From contig NZ_CP017146.1 in the NCBI RefSeq assembly GCF_009930795.1, forward strand, positions 3,100,001-3,164,000: a stretch of DNA of 64,000 bases. The letters are read 5' to 3'. Within the stretch, counting starts at the first letter, position 1, and each line of letters opens with the position of its first letter. The notes under the pieces are model-generated. The model did not search any database. It was not told where the DNA came from and was given only the letters and a program-made list of their open reading frames with translations. The translations under genes were made by a program, and so were the position numbers. Source of the DNA: Marisediminicola antarctica. GTDB lineage: Bacteria > Actinomycetota > Actinomycetes > Actinomycetales > Microbacteriaceae. Below are positions 30,698 to 40,694 of the stretch, one piece after another.

Positions 30698-32020
30698 TCA
30701 GACTGCCTCGACGGCGGTGAAGGCCTCGTCGTAGATGGCGAGGGCGCGCGCGACCTCGTCGGGCGTGATGACACAGGGCGGCACCACGTGAATACGGTTG
30801 TCGGCGGCGAACGGCAGCAGGCCGCGCTTCATGAGCTCGCCCTTCAGCTCGCCGATGACCGCTGCCGAGACCGGTGCGCGGGTGGCGGGGTCCGAGACGA
30901 GGTCGAGCGCCCAGAACACGCCCATCCCCCGCACCTCGCCGATGAGCGGGTGTGCGGCGGCGAGCTCGGCGAGTCCGGGACCGAGGTGGTCCGTTCCGAT
31001 CATCCGCGCGTTGTCGATGATGCCCTCGTCGGCCATCGCGTCCATCGATGCGACGATTGACGCTGCGGCAAGCGGATGGCCGGAGTAGGTGAGCCCGCCG
31101 GGGAACACCTGGGTGTCGAACTCGTGCGCGATCGTCTCGGAGATGACGACGCCGCCGATTGGCACATAGCCGGAGTTGACGCCCTTGGCGAAGGTGATGA
31201 GGTCGGGGACGACGTCGAAGCCCTGGAAGGCGAACCACTCTCCCGTGCGGCCGAAGCCGCACATCACCTCGTCGAAGATGAGCAGGATGCCGTATTTGTC
31301 GCACAGCTCGCGCACGCCGGCGAGGTACCCGGGCGGTGGTACGAGCACGCCGGCGGTGCCGGGAACGCTCTCGAGCAGGATCGCCGCGATCGACGACGAG
31401 CCTTCGGCCTGGATGACGCGCTCGAGGTGGTGCAGCGCGCGGGCACACTCCTCCTCGGGTGTCTGCGCCCAGAACTCCGAGCGGTAGAGGAACGGCCCGA
31501 AGAAGTGCACGTGCCCGCGCGCATACTCATTGGGCACGCGGCGCCAGTCGCCGGTCGCGACGACCGCCGCGCCGGTATTGCCGTGGTACGAGCGATAAGT
31601 CGACAGCACCTTGTCGCGGCCCGTCGTGAGCCTCGCCATGCGGATCGCGTTCTCGTTCGCATCCGCCCCGCCGTTGGTAAAGAAGACGCTCCCGAAGCTC
31701 GATCCCGCCCGCGCGAGGATGCGCTGGGCAGCCTCGCCGCGGGCAAGGTTCGCGTGCGGAGGCGCGACCATCGTGATGATGTCGGCCTGGTCTTTGATGG
31801 CCTGGATGACCTTCGGATGCTGGTGTCCGATGTTCATGTTGACGAGCTGGCTCGAGAAGTCGAGGTACTCCTTGCCGTCGTAGTCCCACAGCGTCGAGCC
31901 GAGCGCCCCGGCGATCACGAAGGGCTTGAGCGCCGCCTGCGCCGACCAGGAGTGGAACACGTGGGCACGGTCCAGGTCGTATGCGAGCGTGCCGTCTGCC
32001 GGGTCGATCGTCGTGCTCAT
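30698..32020 (-). CDS. class III aminotransferase (beta-alanine/omega-amino acid type)
   Basis: A PLP enzyme of 440 residues. The lysine that binds PLP is K279 (in TFAKGVNSGY), and the ring aspartate is D250 (in LIFDEVMCGFGRTGEW). In this cluster the likely substrate is beta-alanine or beta-aminoisobutyrate, the end products of dihydropyrimidine hydrolysis, with pyruvate or 2-oxoglutarate as acceptor. Other omega-amino acids cannot be excluded. An AAGGAAC element precedes the ATG. Last gene of the minus-strand cluster, 75 bp after the binding-protein gene. Confidence 0.85.
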   Translation of the reverse strand: MSTTIDPADGTLAYDLDRAHVFHSWSAQAALKPFVIAGALGSTLWDYDGKEYLDFSSQLVNMNIGHQHPKVIQAIKDQADIITMVAPPHANLARGEAAQRILARAGSSFGSVFFTNGGADANENAIRMARLTTGRDKVLSTYRSYHGNTGAAVVATGDWRRVPNEYARGHVHFFGPFLYRSEFWAQTPEEECARALHHLERVIQAEGSSSIAAILLESVPGTAGVLVPPPGYLAGVRELCDKYGILLIFDEVMCGFGRTGEWFAFQGFDVVPDLITFAKGVNSGYVPIGGVVISETIAHEFDTQVFPGGLTYSGHPLAAASIVASMDAMADEGIIDNARMIGTDHLGPGLAELAAAHPLIGEVRGMGVFWALDLVSDPATRAPVSAAVIGELKGELMKRGLLPFAADNRIHVVPPCVITPDEVARALAIYDEAFTAVEAV

Positions 32021-32095
32021 GGTCGTTCCTTCGGTGAGATCCAGGGGTGAGCGGGGCCCCGAGGAAGGGGCCTCCGCTCACCCTAATTGGTGGAG

Positions 32096-33250
32096 CTACT
32101 TGCCGCCTTCATTGAGGGTGACCTCGATCGGTTCGAAGCTCTCGCCCGTCACGTCGATGCCCTCCTCTGTGAGCTCTGCGAGCGCGAGCTCGATGTACTC
32201 ATTCGTGTAGGCGTTCTCCGGCGGGTCGGTCGTGATGACCGTGGAGCCCTCGAGGTTCTTCGCGGTCTTGGCGACCGAGACGGTCTGCTCCCAGGCATCC
32301 TCGTTGATCACGCCGATGCCGTCGGGCGAGGGCCAGACGAGCTTGTTGACCTCGTTGGTCTGCCACAGCTGGTGGCTCGAGCCGAGCTGCGAGCCGGCGC
32401 CGACGACGATCTCGGCGGTCTCCTCCGGGAAGTCGCGCGCGTAGACGAAGCCCTTGATGACGGCCTTGAGGAAGGCGACCGCGGTCTCCTGGTACTCCTC
32501 GTCGGATTCGAGGCGTTCGGCGTTGGCCCAGATCGCATCCTGCAGCATCGCGGTGCCCTCGTCGTTCCAGTCGATGACGGTGAAGTCCTCCGGCTGGTAG
32601 AGCTCGCCCGTGTCTGGGTTGATCGTCTCGAGAACCTGCGCGTACTCGTTGTAGGTCATCGCTTGGGCTGCGTCGATGTCGCCGGCGAGCAACGCGGCCA
32701 TGTCGAACTGCTGCTGCACGAGCGTGACGTCGGTCGTCGGGTCGAGGCCGGCCTCGGTGATGCCGGCGAACAGCTCGAACTCGTTGCCGAAGCCCCAGTT
32801 GCCGACGTTCTTGCCCTCGAGGTCGGCGGCGGTGTCGATGCCGGCATCCGCGAAGGAGACCTGCAGGGTACCGGAGCGCTGGAAGATCTGGCCGATGTCG
32901 GTGATGCCGGCACCCTGCTCGATCGAGGCGAGCGCCTTGGGCACCCAGGCGATCGCGAAGTCGGCCTGCTGGTCGGCGAGCACGGTCTGCGGAACGATGT
33001 CGACGCCGCCCTCGACGATCTCGACGTCGAGGCCCTCATCTTCGAAGTAGCCCTGGTCGAGGGCCGCGTAATAGCCGGAGAACTGCGCCTGCGCGAACCA
33101 CTGCAGCTGCAGGGTCACGGGAGTGAGCCCGCCGTCGCCGCCGCCCGCCTCCGGCGTCTCGTCCGTGGTGGCGCTGCATCCGCTGAGAAATAGTGCCGAG
33201 GTGGCGACCATCGCGGCCGCTCCCATCCACACGCGCGTGCTGTGCTTCAT
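32096..33250 (-). CDS. NMT1/THI5-type ABC substrate-binding lipoprotein
   Basis: A 384-residue extracellular binding protein with a lipoprotein signal peptide (cleavage before Cys in LFLSGCSA, about residue 25) and an acidic mature N terminus. The core LQWFAQAQFSGYYAALDQGY is typical of the NMT1/THI5 family, which binds pyrimidines, sulfonates or nitrate-like ligands. The neighbours point to a pyrimidine, hydantoin or ureido ligand. AAGGAGA lies six bases before the ATG. Confidence 0.87.
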   Translation of the reverse strand: MKHSTRVWMGAAAMVATSALFLSGCSATTDETPEAGGGDGGLTPVTLQLQWFAQAQFSGYYAALDQGYFEDEGLDVEIVEGGVDIVPQTVLADQQADFAIAWVPKALASIEQGAGITDIGQIFQRSGTLQVSFADAGIDTAADLEGKNVGNWGFGNEFELFAGITEAGLDPTTDVTLVQQQFDMAALLAGDIDAAQAMTYNEYAQVLETINPDTGELYQPEDFTVIDWNDEGTAMLQDAIWANAERLESDEEYQETAVAFLKAVIKGFVYARDFPEETAEIVVGAGSQLGSSHQLWQTNEVNKLVWPSPDGIGVINEDAWEQTVSVAKTAKNLEGSTVITTDPPENAYTNEYIELALAELTEEGIDVTGESFEPIEVTLNEGGK

Positions 33251-33336
33251 GTTCTTCTCCTTCGTGCTGGTCGGATTTGCTGGTGACTGCTTCTTTCAGG
33301 CCACCCCGGCACCGTCGACAGGGGGACGTCGGGGGT

Positions 33337-34095
33337 TCACGCGGCGCGGCGCGAGACGGCTTTCTCGATCGCGAGAGTCGCGGCATAGAACACGACGCCG
33401 AGAATAATGGCGCCGAACACGTACGCCCAGGCTCGCGGGTAAGCACTGTTGGCCGCCGCCGAGGTGATGCGGGAGCCGAGTCCGTTCTGCAGCCCGCCGA
33501 AGTACTCCGCGACGATCGCCGAGATCACGGCGAGCGACGACGCGATGTTGAGTCCGGTGAATACGTAGGGCAGTGCGCCGGGGATCGTGACGGTGCGGCT
33601 GATCTGCCAGTTGGATGCCGCGTAGGCGCGCATGAGGTCGCGGTGCACCGGCAGCACCTGGCGGAGCCCGCGCAGGGTATTGATGAACACGGGGACGAAG
33701 ACGACGATCGCGACGATGACCCGGCGCGGCGTTTCACTCGTCGCCCCGTACATCGTGGTGAGCACGGGGGCGAGGGCCACGATCGGCACGACGGCGATCG
33801 CAGCGACGACGGGCGTCAGCAGCTCGTCGATGAAGCTGAGGCGGGAGGCGAGCAGGGCCATGCTGATGGCCAGCAGCGCCCCCGCGATCAGTCCGATGAG
33901 CGCGTTGGCGCCGGTTGCGAGGAACGACGTCCAGAGCACCGGCAGCACGAGACCCAGCTGCGTGAGGATCGCCGTCGGAGCGGGCAGGAGGTAGGGCTGG
34001 ATGTCGCCCAGAATGACAAGCAGCTCCCAGGCGACAAGGGCGACCAGCCCGAGTGCCACGGGCGGCAGCACGAAACGCAGGGTCGCGGATCTCAT
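33337..34095 (-). CDS. ABC transporter permease (second copy in the importer)
   Basis: A 252-residue inner-membrane protein with about six helices. The permease-ATPase coupling loop is seen at MRAYAASNWQISRTVTIPGALPYVF-like positions (about residues 150-175, key residues EAA-like A-Y-A, then IPGALP). Its start overlaps the ATPase stop by four bases. It works with the permease at 34910 as a heterodimer of the SsuC/TauC/ThiX type. Confidence 0.88.
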   Translation of the reverse strand: MRSATLRFVLPPVALGLVALVAWELLVILGDIQPYLLPAPTAILTQLGLVLPVLWTSFLATGANALIGLIAGALLAISMALLASRLSFIDELLTPVVAAIAVVPIVALAPVLTTMYGATSETPRRVIVAIVVFVPVFINTLRGLRQVLPVHRDLMRAYAASNWQISRTVTIPGALPYVFTGLNIASSLAVISAIVAEYFGGLQNGLGSRITSAAANSAYPRAWAYVFGAIILGVVFYAATLAIEKAVSRRAA

Positions 34096-34913
34096 CGCAG
34101 GTCCACTCCCCGCACAGCGTTATCCGGCCGCGTCTCGGTCGGTGCCCCGTGCAGCGCCTCGCGCACCCGCGTGACGCCCTCGAAGAAGCTGTCCTCCTCG
34201 CGCAGCGTCTCGCCGCGCTTCTCGCCGAGGGCGACGTCGACGATCTCGCGGATGCGGCCCGGCCGCGGCGACATGACCACTACACGGTCGGAGAGGAACA
34301 CCGCCTCGGGGATCGAGTGGGTGACGAACACGACGGCGGCGCCCGTCTCGGCGCAAATGCGCACGAGCTCGGTCTGCATGCGCTCGCGCGTCATCTCATC
34401 GAGCGCGCCGAACGGCTCGTCCATGAGCAGCAGCTCGGGGCTCTCCGCGAGCGACCGCGCGATCGCGACTCGCTGCTGCATGCCTCCGGAAAGCTGGTCG
34501 GGGAAGTTGGCGGCGAAGTCGGACAGCCCGACAAGAGCCATCAGCTCCGCGACGCGCGCGCGCCGCGTCGCCGCAGGCACCCGGTGCAGCTGCAGCGGCA
34601 GTTCGATGTTCGCCTCGACGGTGCGCCACGGCAGGAGCCCCGCGCTCTGGAACGCGATGCCGTAGTCCTGGTCGAGCCGGGCCTGGTGGGCGGGCTTGCC
34701 GAAAACGGTTACGGCTCCGGACGTCGGCTGGTCGAGGTCGGCGATGAGGCGCAGGAGCGTCGACTTGCCGCATCCGGACGGCCCGATCAGCGAGACGAAC
34801 TCGCCCGCCTTCACCGTGAGGCTCACCTCGTCGAGCGCGGTGACCCCGTCGCCCTTCTTGACGGGGAAGGTCTTCGTGACGTCGCTCACCTGAACGGCGA
34901 TGGCGTGGCTCAT
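34092..34913 (-). CDS. ABC transporter ATP-binding protein
   Basis: A 273-residue ATPase of the nitrate/sulfonate/taurine type. Walker A GPSGCGKST (about 47-55), signature LSGGMQQRVAIARSL and Walker B LLLMDEPFGALDE are intact, and the H-loop is in VTHSIPEAV. The ATG at 34913 overlaps the upstream permease stop as ATGA, and its own stop overlaps the next permease start. A longer in-frame extension upstream is not supported. Confidence 0.92.
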   Translation of the reverse strand: MSHAIAVQVSDVTKTFPVKKGDGVTALDEVSLTVKAGEFVSLIGPSGCGKSTLLRLIADLDQPTSGAVTVFGKPAHQARLDQDYGIAFQSAGLLPWRTVEANIELPLQLHRVPAATRRARVAELMALVGLSDFAANFPDQLSGGMQQRVAIARSLAESPELLLMDEPFGALDEMTRERMQTELVRICAETGAAVVFVTHSIPEAVFLSDRVVVMSPRPGRIREIVDVALGEKRGETLREEDSFFEGVTRVREALHGAPTETRPDNAVRGVDLR

Positions 34914-35791
34914 GCGGTCACCTCGTTTCTGCGATAGCGCTTCAGGGTCGCTCCGGCGAGCGCGACGATTGCCGCCGCGGCGAGGCCCATGATCACGGCG
35001 ACGGCGATGGGCGAGTAGGCCTTCGCCGGGTCGCTCGATCCCGACTGGGCGTATTCGATGATGAGGCGGCCGATGCCGCCCTTGGCACCCGTGGACACCT
35101 CGGCGACGACGGTGCCGATGATGGCGGATGCCGCGCCGAGGCGCAGCGCCGGCAGTAGGTACGGCACGCTCGCGGGAAGCCGCAGGTGGATCAGGGTCGC
35201 CCACCACCCGGTCGCGTAGGCGTGGAACAGCTCCACGTTGATCTCGTCGGGCGACTGGAGGCCGCGCAGCGCACCGACTGCCACGGGGAAGAACGCGAGG
35301 TAGGCCGCGATCACGGCCACCGACATCCACCGCTCCCACTCGAAGGTTCCGATCTGCACCCGGCCACCCCAGCTGACGATGAGCGGGGCGAGGGCGATGA
35401 GCGGCACCGTCTGGCTGAGCACGAGCCACGGCAGCACCGCCGACTCGGCGACGCGGAACCGCTGCATGAGCAGCGCCAGCCCGAAGCCGACGATCGAGCC
35501 GATGAGCAGGCCAACGGATGCCGTGCCGAGGCTTGAGAGGCCGGCGAGCAGCACCGAGGTCCACACGGGCGGCGACCCCTCCGACGAGTTCACGGGCTCC
35601 AGTGCGCGGGCGATCATGTCCCAGATGTGGGGCATTGCGAGGTCGGTGGTGCGCGGCAGCAGCTGCAGCCCGGCCACATCGACCCCCTCGGCGGGACCGA
35701 CGGCCTTGTAGAGCTCCCAGATCACCCCGAGCAGCACGATCGCGAGCGCGCCGAGCCCGATGCGCCTGGCCAGACCGGTCATCCCGCGCAC
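34910..35791 (-). CDS. ABC transporter permease (first copy in the importer)
   Basis: A 293-residue permease with about six helices and the coupling-loop segment ELFHAYATGWWATLIHLRLP followed by ASVPYLLPALR. It is paired with the second permease at 33337. The start is ambiguous: GTG at 35791 or ATG at 35782, neither with a strong Shine-Dalgarno sequence. It lies seven bases after the LLM stop and is probably translated by coupling. Confidence 0.88.
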   Translation of the reverse strand: MRGMTGLARRIGLGALAIVLLGVIWELYKAVGPAEGVDVAGLQLLPRTTDLAMPHIWDMIARALEPVNSSEGSPPVWTSVLLAGLSSLGTASVGLLIGSIVGFGLALLMQRFRVAESAVLPWLVLSQTVPLIALAPLIVSWGGRVQIGTFEWERWMSVAVIAAYLAFFPVAVGALRGLQSPDEINVELFHAYATGWWATLIHLRLPASVPYLLPALRLGAASAIIGTVVAEVSTGAKGGIGRLIIEYAQSGSSDPAKAYSPIAVAVIMGLAAAAIVALAGATLKRYRRNEVTA

Positions 35792-35798
35792 GGCCCCG

Positions 35799-36815
35799 TC
35801 ATGCCTTGGCCACGATCTTCTCCTTGAGTGCGGGGATGACGCTCTCCCCGTACACGCGCAGGGTCTCCTCCTTGTTGTCGTGCTGCAGGTAGCCGGCGAA
35901 CTGGTCGACGCCGAGCTCCCTCAGGGCTTTCAGCTTCTCGATGTGCTGCTCGGCGCTGCCCAGCAGGCAGAAGCGGTCCACGATCTCGTCCGGCACGAAG
36001 TCGGCGTGGGTGTTGCCGGCGAGTCCGTGCTGGTTGTAGTCATACCCTTCACGCGCCTCGATGTAGTCGGTGAGCGCCTTCGGTACGGAGCCATTGGCGC
36101 CGTACTTGGCGACGATGTCGGCCACGTGATTTCCGACCATCCCGCCGAACCAGCGCGTCTGGTTGCGCATGTGATCGATGTCGTCACCGATGTACATGGG
36201 CGCGGCGACGCAGAACTTGACGTCCATTGGGTCGCGGCCGGCCTTCTCCGCGGCCTCCCGCACCGTCGTGATCATCCACGCGGCGATGTCGAGGTCGGCG
36301 AGCTGCAGGATGAAGCCGTCGCCGACCTCGCCCGCGAGCTTGAGGGCGAGCGGCCCGTAGGCGGCGACCCACACCTCGAGCGACGACCCGACGCTCCACG
36401 GAAATTGCACGGTCGCGCCGTTGTACTCGACCGCGCGACTGTTGGCGAGCTCGCGGATGACGTGGATCGACTCGCGCAGCGTCCTGAGCGTGGTCGGGGC
36501 GCCTCCCGTGACGCGCACGGCCGAGTCGCCCCTGCCGATGCCGCAGATGGTGCGGTTGCCGTACATCTCGTTGAGGGTGGCGTAGGTGGATGCTGTGACG
36601 GTCCAGTCGCGGGTCGCCGGGTTGGTGACCATCGGGCCGACGATGACACGGTTCGTCTCGGCCAGGATGCGGCTGTAGATCACATAGGGCTCCTGCCAGA
36701 GCAGGTGCGAGTCGAAGGTCCACACGTGGCTGAACCCGTACTGCTCCGCGAGCTTTGCGAGGTGCACGGTGCGCGAGGCGGGCGGGGTGGTCTGAATTAC
36801 TGCTCCGAAATCCAC
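35799..36815 (-). CDS. LLM-class F420-dependent oxidoreductase in the pyrimidine cluster
   Basis: A 338-residue protein that starts DFGAVIQTTPPASRTVHLA and contains VWTFDSHLLWQEPYVI and ICGIGRGDSAVR, close to methylene-tetrahydromethanopterin reductase-like F420 enzymes (TIGR03842 type, from memory). It is embedded between dihydropyrimidinase and the importer, so a redox step on a pyrimidine, hydantoin or ring-opened product is inferred. No dihydropyrimidine dehydrogenase (PydA) gene is present in the window. GTG start, eight bases after the dihydropyrimidinase stop. Confidence 0.87.
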   Translation of the reverse strand: MDFGAVIQTTPPASRTVHLAKLAEQYGFSHVWTFDSHLLWQEPYVIYSRILAETNRVIVGPMVTNPATRDWTVTASTYATLNEMYGNRTICGIGRGDSAVRVTGGAPTTLRTLRESIHVIRELANSRAVEYNGATVQFPWSVGSSLEVWVAAYGPLALKLAGEVGDGFILQLADLDIAAWMITTVREAAEKAGRDPMDVKFCVAAPMYIGDDIDHMRNQTRWFGGMVGNHVADIVAKYGANGSVPKALTDYIEAREGYDYNQHGLAGNTHADFVPDEIVDRFCLLGSAEQHIEKLKALRELGVDQFAGYLQHDNKEETLRVYGESVIPALKEKIVAKA

Positions 36816-36823
36816 TGTGTTCC

Positions 36824-38245
<1,422 letters not shown>

Positions 38246-38268
38246 TACTGCTCCCTTGCAGCTGGCGG

Positions 38269-39117
38269 TTACGGGGCGACGGTGGCGGTGTAGGAGTCCG
38301 GGCGGCGGTCCCGGTAGAACTGCCAGTTGTTGCGCACCTCGCGGATGACGTCGAGGTCGAGGTCGCGGATGACGGTCTCGGTCTGGTCCTCGCTCGCGAT
38401 ATCGCCGACGAAGTTGCCGCGCGGATCGACGAAGTAGCTCGACCCGTAGAAGGTCACGGCCTTGTCGCCGAACTCCTCGGTCTCGGTGCCGACCCGGTTG
38501 TTCGCTCCGATGTAGTACTGGTTGGCGGCGGCCGCAGCGGGCTGCTCCAGCTCCCACAGGCGGTTCGACAGCCCCGGTTTTGTGGCCGAGGGGTTGAAGA
38601 CGATCTCGGCGCCGTTCAGCCCGAGCTCACGCCATCCCTCGGGGAAGTGGCGGTCGTAGCAGATGTAGACGCCGACCTTGCCGACCCTGGTGTTGAAGAC
38701 GGGGTAGCCGAGGTTGCCGGGGCGGAAGTAGAACTTCTCCCAGAAGCGGTCGAGGTTGGGGATGTGGTGCTTGCGGTAGCTGCCGAGGTTCTCTCCGTCG
38801 GCGTCGATCACGACGGCCGTGTTGTAGTACACGCCCGGCATGGCCTCTTCATAGATGGGCAGCACGATGACGATGCCGAGTTCCTTCGCGAGCGCCTGAA
38901 AACGTGTCGTGGTGGGACCGGGGATCGACTCTGCGTAGTCGTAGTACTTGGCATCCTCGATGATGCCGAAGTAGGGCCCATAGAACAGCTCTTGGAAGCA
39001 GATGATCTGCGCGCCCTGGGCGGCCGCGTCGCGCGCGAACTTCTCGTGCTTGGCGATCATCGATTCCTTGTCACCGGTCCAGGTGGTCTGGGTCAGTGCT
39101 GCACGTACAACGGTCAA
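38269..39117 (-). CDS. pydC: nitrilase-superfamily N-carbamoyl-beta-alanine amidohydrolase
   Basis: Hydrolyses N-carbamoyl-beta-amino acids to the amino acid, CO2 and ammonia, the step after dihydropyrimidinase. From the TTG at 39117 the protein has 282 residues with the triad E43 (FQELFYGP), K116 (YRKHHIP) and C153 (VYICYDRHFPEGWREL). The TTG is preferred because AGGAGG lies six bases upstream; ATG codons at 39150 and 39186 lack such a site. First gene of the cluster. An N-carbamoyl-D-amino-acid hydrolase is the alternative. Confidence 0.88.
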   Translation of the reverse strand: MTVVRAALTQTTWTGDKESMIAKHEKFARDAAAQGAQIICFQELFYGPYFGIIEDAKYYDYAESIPGPTTTRFQALAKELGIVIVLPIYEEAMPGVYYNTAVVIDADGENLGSYRKHHIPNLDRFWEKFYFRPGNLGYPVFNTRVGKVGVYICYDRHFPEGWRELGLNGAEIVFNPSATKPGLSNRLWELEQPAAAAANQYYIGANNRVGTETEEFGDKAVTFYGSSYFVDPRGNFVGDIASEDQTETVIRDLDLDVIREVRNNWQFYRDRRPDSYTATVAP

Positions 39118-39389
39118 GGTGGGCCTCCTGGTCTGAGCGCGTGATGTCATTGTCAGACGCTCACATTTCGGAATCGTTTCCAACAATGACGTTGGCGTAA
39201 AACCTACGGCTCATCTGGGCTAGTGCATAGAGCCGCGCCGTGGCCCGGCCGAGACCCGGCGTGCACGCCGCTGTCGCAACTGCCGATCTCCATCGCCTGA
39301 GAGGACGCCTCCCACTCGGCTGACAGCGACCAATGACGTGGGATGATGCTCGAAGCACGAGCGGCAACGACGACGGATGGGGGACGCTC
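39118..39389. promoter_or_regulatory. divergent control region of the pyrimidine cluster and the GNAT-AAA gene
   Basis: A 272-bp interval between divergent genes. A perfect 8-bp inverted repeat, GTCATTGT (39146-39153) and ACAATGAC (39183-39190), flanks 29 bp just upstream of the amidohydrolase start. It could be an operator of a GntR-like repressor, but no regulator gene is nearby. The remainder shows no clear feature. Confidence 0.3.
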
Positions 39390-40694
39390 ATGGCGAGCTG
39401 GCGCATCAGGGACTTCCACACGGCCGACCTCGACGGCATCCTGCACCTGTGGGAGATCATCAAGGCGACCGGCGTCGAGCCCGTGTACGCACTCTCTGAG
39501 GTGCTTGCCTCGTGCGAGAAGGATTACGCAGTCGTCGCGATGCACGGCGACGAGGTCGTCGGCGCCGCGGTGGCCCGCGCCGCCCACGATCAGGGCTGGG
39601 TCGTGTTTCTCGCTACCTCGCCGGGATGGCGAGAGCAGGGGATCGGCGCGGCACTACTCGCTGCCATCGAGAAGCGGATGGCTCCCCACGGACTCACCAA
39701 GCTCTCCGCGCTCATGCCCGAGACCGAGACCCGTGTCGAGGCGTTCCTCAACAACGGGTTCGAGCTGAAGAAGAACCTGCGGTACTTCGAGCGGCAGATC
39801 CGGGTGCATCGGCAGGAGCTGGGCCCACTGAGCGAACTCGGCGGGCGACTCATGCCGCGCGACCTGTGGGATCTCGTCGCCGGCATGAAGCGGGAGAAGG
39901 AGCTGCTCGAGCGCCGCCTCGTGCTGCCGCTCGCCCAGGCCGAGCTCGCCGAGGAGTTCGGTGTTGTGCCGCCGCGGGCAGTCGTGCTCTTCGGGCCTCC
40001 CGGTACCGGCAAGACGACATTCGCGAAGGCGATCGCGTCGCGGCTCGAGTGGCCCTTCGTCGAGGTGTTCCCGTCCCGACTCGCGGCCGACCCGAACGGG
40101 CTCGCGGGGGCGCTGCGGGAGACATTCCTCGAGATCGCGGAACTGGAGCACGCGGTGGTCTTCATCGACGAGGTCGAGGAGATCGCCTCGCAGCGCTCAG
40201 GCGGCGCCCCATCGCCTCTCCAGGGGGTCACGAACGAGCTGCTCAAGATCATCCCCGCGTTCCGGGACCAGCCCGGGCGCCTGCTCGTGTGCGCCACGAA
40301 CTTCATCCGCGCACTCGATTCCGCGTTCCTCCGGCACGGGCGCTTCGACTACGTGATCCCGATCGGGCTGCCCGACTCCGAGGCACGAGCCGCAATGTGG
40401 CGGCGATTCATTCCCGCGGCGGTCGTCGGGCAGATCGACGTCGAGCTGCTCGTTGCGCGCTCCGCAGGGTTCTCCCCTGCTGACATCGAATTCGCCGCCC
40501 GCAGTGCATCGCAGCGCGCGCTTGAAAAAGCCGTCTACGAGCAGGCCGTGAATGACGAGCCCGCTGGGGCGGACGCGCGGCGCGGCCCGGCGACCGGTGA
40601 CTACATTGGCGCCATCGCCGAGACGCGCATGACCGTGAGCGCCGAGGTGGCGCAGGAGTTCCTCGAGGACATCGACGCGATCGCACGCGTGTAG
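39390..40694 (+). CDS. GNAT acetyltransferase fused to a classical AAA+ ATPase
   Basis: A 434-residue two-domain protein. Residues 1-137 form a GNAT fold with the acetyl-CoA loop REQGIGAALL at 81-90. Residues 150-400 form an AAA+ module with Walker A GPPGTGKT at 202-209, Walker B VVFIDEVEE (D260, E261), sensor-1 N304 and arginine fingers R315 and R318 in RHGRFD. ATG at 39390 follows a G-rich stretch. It stands alone, divergent from the pyrimidine cluster. The combination suggests ATP-driven remodelling tied to acetylation of a partner, but no target is known to me. Confidence 0.85.
   Translation: MASWRIRDFHTADLDGILHLWEIIKATGVEPVYALSEVLASCEKDYAVVAMHGDEVVGAAVARAAHDQGWVVFLATSPGWREQGIGAALLAAIEKRMAPHGLTKLSALMPETETRVEAFLNNGFELKKNLRYFERQIRVHRQELGPLSELGGRLMPRDLWDLVAGMKREKELLERRLVLPLAQAELAEEFGVVPPRAVVLFGPPGTGKTTFAKAIASRLEWPFVEVFPSRLAADPNGLAGALRETFLEIAELEHAVVFIDEVEEIASQRSGGAPSPLQGVTNELLKIIPAFRDQPGRLLVCATNFIRALDSAFLRHGRFDYVIPIGLPDSEARAAMWRRFIPAAVVGQIDVELLVARSAGFSPADIEFAARSASQRALEKAVYEQAVNDEPAGADARRGPATGDYIGAIAETRMTVSAEVAQEFLEDIDAIARV

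Follow-up and report, generated by a model that had tools for sequence, protein, structure and literature searches.

Does a reading frame that joins an acetyltransferase fold to an AAA+ ATPase encode one genuine protein, and what could such a protein do? This question arose from an earlier note on a 64,000-nucleotide stretch of Marisediminicola antarctica DNA (the window). The note had placed a GNAT domain and an AAA+ module in one frame, and had proposed that the protein uses ATP to remodel a partner that becomes acetylated as well.

A GNAT domain and an AAA+ module in one frame

The frame at 39390–40694 (plus strand) was single and unbroken, and encoded a protein of 434 amino acids (plus stop), consisting of an N-terminal GNAT domain followed by a complete classical AAA+ module. 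An upstream ATG at 39333 also opens this frame. The start at 39390 was favored, because the M-x-x-W-R-I-R start is conserved in the relatives.

Translation and Pfam analysis bore out the joining of the two domains. Acetyltransf_1 matched residues 39–108 (E 8.6e-10), and AAA matched residues 198–326 (E 1.3e-24). AAA_lid_3 gave a partial match at 349–380 (E 4.9e-5), which was under its cut-off. The motifs lay where the note had put them: R81-E-Q-G-I-G86, GPPGTGKT at 202–209, VVFIDE at 256–261, N304, R315 and R318.

The gene occurs once in the host genome, a single contig of 3.35 Mb. Other AAA matches in this genome were weaker, with an identity of about 30% in the AAA part, and the best of them was an FtsH by sequence. 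A search for the GNAT-AAA architecture in actinobacteria, as the note had suggested, recovered 162 distinct full-length homologues from across Actinomycetota, both chromosomal and plasmid-borne. Clustering at 85% identity left 62 representatives. The single contig and the recurrence of the fusion in 162 homologues excluded chance or misassembly, and thus the assembly error that the note had named as a possible refutation.

Distribution of the family

The distribution of the fusion was patchy. At E <= 1e-30 it was detected in 57 of the 395 genomes of the class sample, a rate of about one in seven for the sampled Actinomycetes. The phylum sample gave 33 of 396 genomes at the same threshold, a few of which had general AAA matches only. 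Plasmid carriers were found in Arthrobacter, Paenarthrobacter, Tsukamurella, Rhodococcus, Streptomyces, Embleya, Saccharopolyspora and Kitasatospora. In the plasmid collection, a sharp gap separated the full-length actinobacterial matches from the AAA-only matches, which were to CDC48-like proteins of other groups. No full-length homologue was found in the phage and viral-contig collections. The fusion is likely confined to Actinomycetota, with the limited coverage of chromosomes from other phyla taken into account.

Some members are called 'bifunctional GNAT family N-acetyltransferase/ATP-binding protein' in the public plasmid annotation (NCBI). The open-access literature yielded no paper or experimental study on any GNAT-AAA protein, in line with the note, which had known of no characterised example. 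The fusion is therefore catalogued in databases, yet apparently unstudied.

The two modules stayed joined throughout the family. An AAA-only form was considered and rejected, since its lone candidate (L173, 9115–10487 in genome G237) was a second GNAT-AAA copy, in which a frameshift separates the GNAT half from the AAA half. A pseudogene or an error in sequencing could account for it.

The ATPase half is conserved throughout

The entry linker (residues 151–190, 39840–39959) corresponds to the 'W-D-x-x-G' segment of CDC48. In the family alignment G151 was invariant, and W160, G165 and M166 were conserved. The AAA+ core follows at residues 191–333 (39960–40388), and contains Walker A (39993–40016), Walker B (40155–40172), sensor 1 (40299–40301) and the arginine fingers (40332–40343). 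Walker A, as GPPGTGK[T/S], N304 and R315 were invariant in all 162 homologues, and D260-E261 of Walker B was kept in all 62 representatives. R318 was found in 161 of the 162, the exception being L174, which has a garbled C-terminus. With Walker A, Walker B, the sensor 1 Asn and the SRH arginine fingers, the module belongs to the classical, SRH-containing AAA clade. A hexameric ring of GNAT-AAA subunits would be expected, because the arginine fingers are present and from what is known of the AAA family.

The best solved matches of this half were VCP/CDC48 domains (E about 1e-57), and the residue-level alignment with CDC48 D2 spanned the W-D-x-x-G linker to the lid. The pore-loop-1 position (residues 229–240, 40074–40109) was different. 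A threading unfoldase has an aromatic-hydrophobic-Gly motif here, K-W-V-G in CDC48 D2, which in the window protein is replaced by SRLAADPNGLAG. The family pattern was S-R-L-A-x-x-x-x-G-L-A, and 59 of the 62 representatives were without an aromatic, the exceptions reading AAEYG. The missing aromatic gives 'remodelling' a narrower meaning. By itself it is compatible with threading, since VCP D1 also has none (KLAG).

The lid and C-terminal helix (40389–40691) were recognized by the partial AAA_lid_3 match. They end in a penultimate Arg, R433 (40686–40688), which was invariant in all 162 homologues and possibly makes an inter-subunit contact.

None of the 162 homologues had an HbYX C-terminus. 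By Pfam model, the 20S proteasome was found in 311 of the 395 class genomes, and was missing from the host genome and from four other fusion-bearing Microbacteriaceae genomes. A proteasome link was therefore rejected for the host. As far as can be read from the sequences, the pore loop, the tail and the missing 20S argue against a processive unfoldase feeding a protease, and would be compatible with limited pulling.

The acetyl-CoA loop is lost in part of the family

The GNAT-fold domain spans residues 1–142 (39390–39815), and was matched by Pfam Acetyltransf_1, 7 and 10. The AlphaFold2 model of residues 1–152 (pLDDT 74) showed the canonical order of GNAT elements. The full-length model was poor (pLDDT 53.5) and was built on a shallow alignment. 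The nearest solved structures to the GNAT model included N-acetylglutamate synthase, YpeA, NAA50, Ard1, RimI and NatC. NAA50, Ard1, RimI and NatC are protein N-alpha acetyltransferases, and the modelled fold would be compatible with a peptide-like acceptor. The fold together with motif A, R/Q-x-x-G-x-G/A, placed the domain in the GNAT superfamily. In the window protein the pyrophosphate loop for acetyl-CoA (39630–39647) was intact, which makes acetyl transfer by this protein plausible.

The loop was kept in 47 of the 62 representatives and missing in 15, as called by a pattern test; the loss may be compensated structurally. In the milder cases, the third Gly was changed to Pro or Val. The severe cases included a deletion in L015, T-D-P-A-V-A in L108 and S-E-N-D-L-T in L195. 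Several of the eroded sequences came from draft genomes, and the same change recurred in independent relatives. On a tree built from the AAA part only, at least 5–6 changes were required to explain the losses. Nearly all eroded proteins retained the fold-specific residues R7, D13, A50, W70, E94 and G151.

The two halves differed in constraint. The median all-pairs identity was 68% for the AAA core versus 37% for the GNAT domain. Between loop-intact pairs, dN/dS was 0.055 for GNAT and 0.029 for AAA. The eroded clade with the best sampling (L195, L197, L199 and L203) gave 0.24–0.46 for GNAT and 0.05–0.07 for AAA, and in a mildly altered pair (L119 and L125) the GNAT value was 0.06. By these values, after severe loop loss the GNAT domain was relaxed but still constrained, and the ATPase was untouched.

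Acetylation cannot be the family-wide function, because about one quarter of the representatives have no CoA loop while the fold is kept. Judged from this pattern, acetyl transfer is not essential to the family, the ATPase being invariant despite the 15 losses. The note had also held that homologues lacking either catalytic motif set would count against its proposal. Such homologues were found for the GNAT half, and the catalytic residues of the AAA half were invariant. Of the proposed remodelling of an acetylated partner, the ATPase part stood, and acetylation as a function common to the family did not.

Comparison with known systems

CDC48/p97/VCP and Cpa, a Cdc48-like protein of actinobacteria (eLife 2018 e34055, PMC6017811), share with the fusion the classical AAA module of linker, Walker A and B, sensor 1, two arginine fingers and lid. 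They have two AAA domains and an N-domain, whereas GNAT-AAA has one AAA domain and a GNAT domain, no CDC48 D2 aromatic in pore loop 1, and the conserved penultimate Arg. The protein is not a CDC48/Cpa orthologue with an N-domain and tandem D1-D2; the CDC48 model scored it at 113.7 bits, with a cut-off of 802.65. Membership in PAN/Mpa was likewise rejected: HbYX and the host 20S were missing, and the PAN and pup_AAA scores were far under cut-off.

The prokaryotic GNAT lysine acetyltransferases resemble GNAT-AAA in having a GNAT domain joined to another domain. In classes I–III the fusion partners are acyl-CoA synthetase or regulatory domains (mBio 2019, PMC6456759), and AAPatA is an ACT-GNAT lysine acetyltransferase (PMC6434083). 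The word 'ATPase' was absent from the main text of both papers.

IetA showed a distant likeness to the AAA half. Membership was rejected from its score of 94.6 bits against the NCBIfam cut-off of 510. No partner gene was shared family-wide. No subtilase that could represent the subtilisin-type IetS gene was present among the annotated neighbours in the window or on the plasmids.

Possible mode of action

The core function probably lies in the motor, because the ATPase parts were never lost and the CoA loop was often lost. The protein may well be a stand-alone, single-ring remodelling ATPase of the CDC48/classical-AAA type, with the GNAT fold in the position of the CDC48 N-domain; we prefer this reading, with our judgement on it evenly balanced. 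The CDC48 N-domain is not homologous to GNAT, and the likeness is positional.

In this mechanism, GNAT-AAA subunits would assemble into an ATP-dependent ring. The GNAT domain would capture the target, probably a protein N-terminus or a lysine side chain. In most lineages, that of the window protein included, it would also bind acetyl-CoA and might acetylate the target. Powered by ATP hydrolysis, the AAA ring would then move against the target that GNAT has captured, so that a complex is pulled apart or reset. The ring would tug locally on its target, and would not thread it processively into a protease. The protein nature of the substrate, its acetylation and its remodelling are all inferred here.

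More tentatively, the GNAT fold could be an acetyl-CoA-sensing substrate receptor in a phylum-wide actinobacterial class of AAA+ proteins. Remodelling would then follow the acetyl-CoA level or the target's acetylation state. The domain would have become, in some lineages, a pure binding domain (a pseudo-acetyltransferase). If GNAT is the receptor of a CDC48-like ring, this would be a further solution to substrate choice by AAA+ proteins. The loop-less lineages would be a natural experiment in which binding can be told apart from acetyl transfer.

The main rival is an ATP-dependent acetyltransferase, in which a protein (or RNA) substrate is acetylated by GNAT once the AAA ring, as a helper, has opened or presented it. 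We regard it as somewhat unlikely. The loop kept in most representatives, the low GNAT dN/dS of loop-intact pairs and the resemblance to NAA50, RimI, Ard1 and NatC all speak for it, and acetylation may be central in the loop-keeping lineages. On the other hand, the ATPase is invariant in the 15 representatives that have no loop. A precedent exists in TmcA/NAT10, an RNA cytidine acetyltransferase that carries a nucleotide-driven motor and GNAT in one chain, its helicase module serving RNA acetylation. However, that motor is a helicase and not AAA+, the domain order is unlike that of GNAT-AAA, and none of the TmcA or helicase Pfam families was matched. It is improbable that the protein unfolds substrates, chosen or marked by GNAT, for delivery to the proteasome or the Clp protease. 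CDC48/PAN-type ATPases are the nearest relatives of the AAA half, but the tail, the pore loop and the proteasome survey described above stand against it.

An anti-phage or conflict ATPase on mobile DNA, related to IetA, is hardly probable. The patchy distribution and the carriage on plasmids would fit, as would the weak match between the AAA half and IetA. That match, however, scored lower than those to CDC48/PAN, no partner gene was shared across the family, the gene contexts were metabolic or chromosomal housekeeping, and the phage and viral collections contained no homologue. We consider it very doubtful that the protein is an activase for the hydantoin/pyrimidine-type catabolic cluster that is divergently adjacent in the window, with dihydropyrimidinase and amidase genes directly upstream on the opposite strand. 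A similar cluster lies near the gene in a related genome (L022), but there two other predicted genes intervene, and the other families and orders compared did not share it.

Gene neighbourhood

In the window, the GNAT-AAA gene stands alone between this divergent dihydropyrimidinase/amidase/F420-oxidoreductase cluster (30698–39186, minus strand) and a convergent HAD-IIA hydrolase gene. The cluster dihydropyrimidinase (TIGR02033) and F420-dependent oxidoreductase (TIGR03842) were both above cut-off. The cluster also encodes an N-carbamoyl-amidase-like nitrilase, an aminotransferase and an ABC transporter, by eye of the nitrate/taurine/pyrimidine-precursor type. L022 was the only related genome with a similar cluster near the fusion.

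Neighbourhoods were called with a simple codon-bias gene caller, curated annotation being available for the plasmid records only. No gene neighbour was shared family-wide across the loci compared; those of Arthrobacter, Streptomyces, Rhodococcus and the deeper clades differed. At only 13 of 78 loci did a gene on the same strand lie within 60 bp upstream. GNAT-AAA probably works without a fixed operon partner, because the neighbours vary by clade and same-strand upstream genes are few. As operon partners we rejected the hydantoin/pyrimidine cluster, the asparaginase-aspartase-permease stretch of Arthrobacter, HypE/HypD of Kitasatospora and the SulP/DabA-like genes of one deep clade, none of which extended beyond its own clade.

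In a clade outside the class (L217, L218, L222, L228 and L230), genes for a two-component system and a SulP-type transporter adjoin the fusion gene, together with DabA/NuoL-like genes. As annotated by reading the sequence, these neighbours are suggestive of inorganic-carbon uptake. On plasmid pDK2 of Rhodococcus sp. DK17 (L131), two Hsp20 genes precede the GNAT-AAA gene, which is followed by genes for a Dyp-type peroxidase and encapsulin, a stress-type context.
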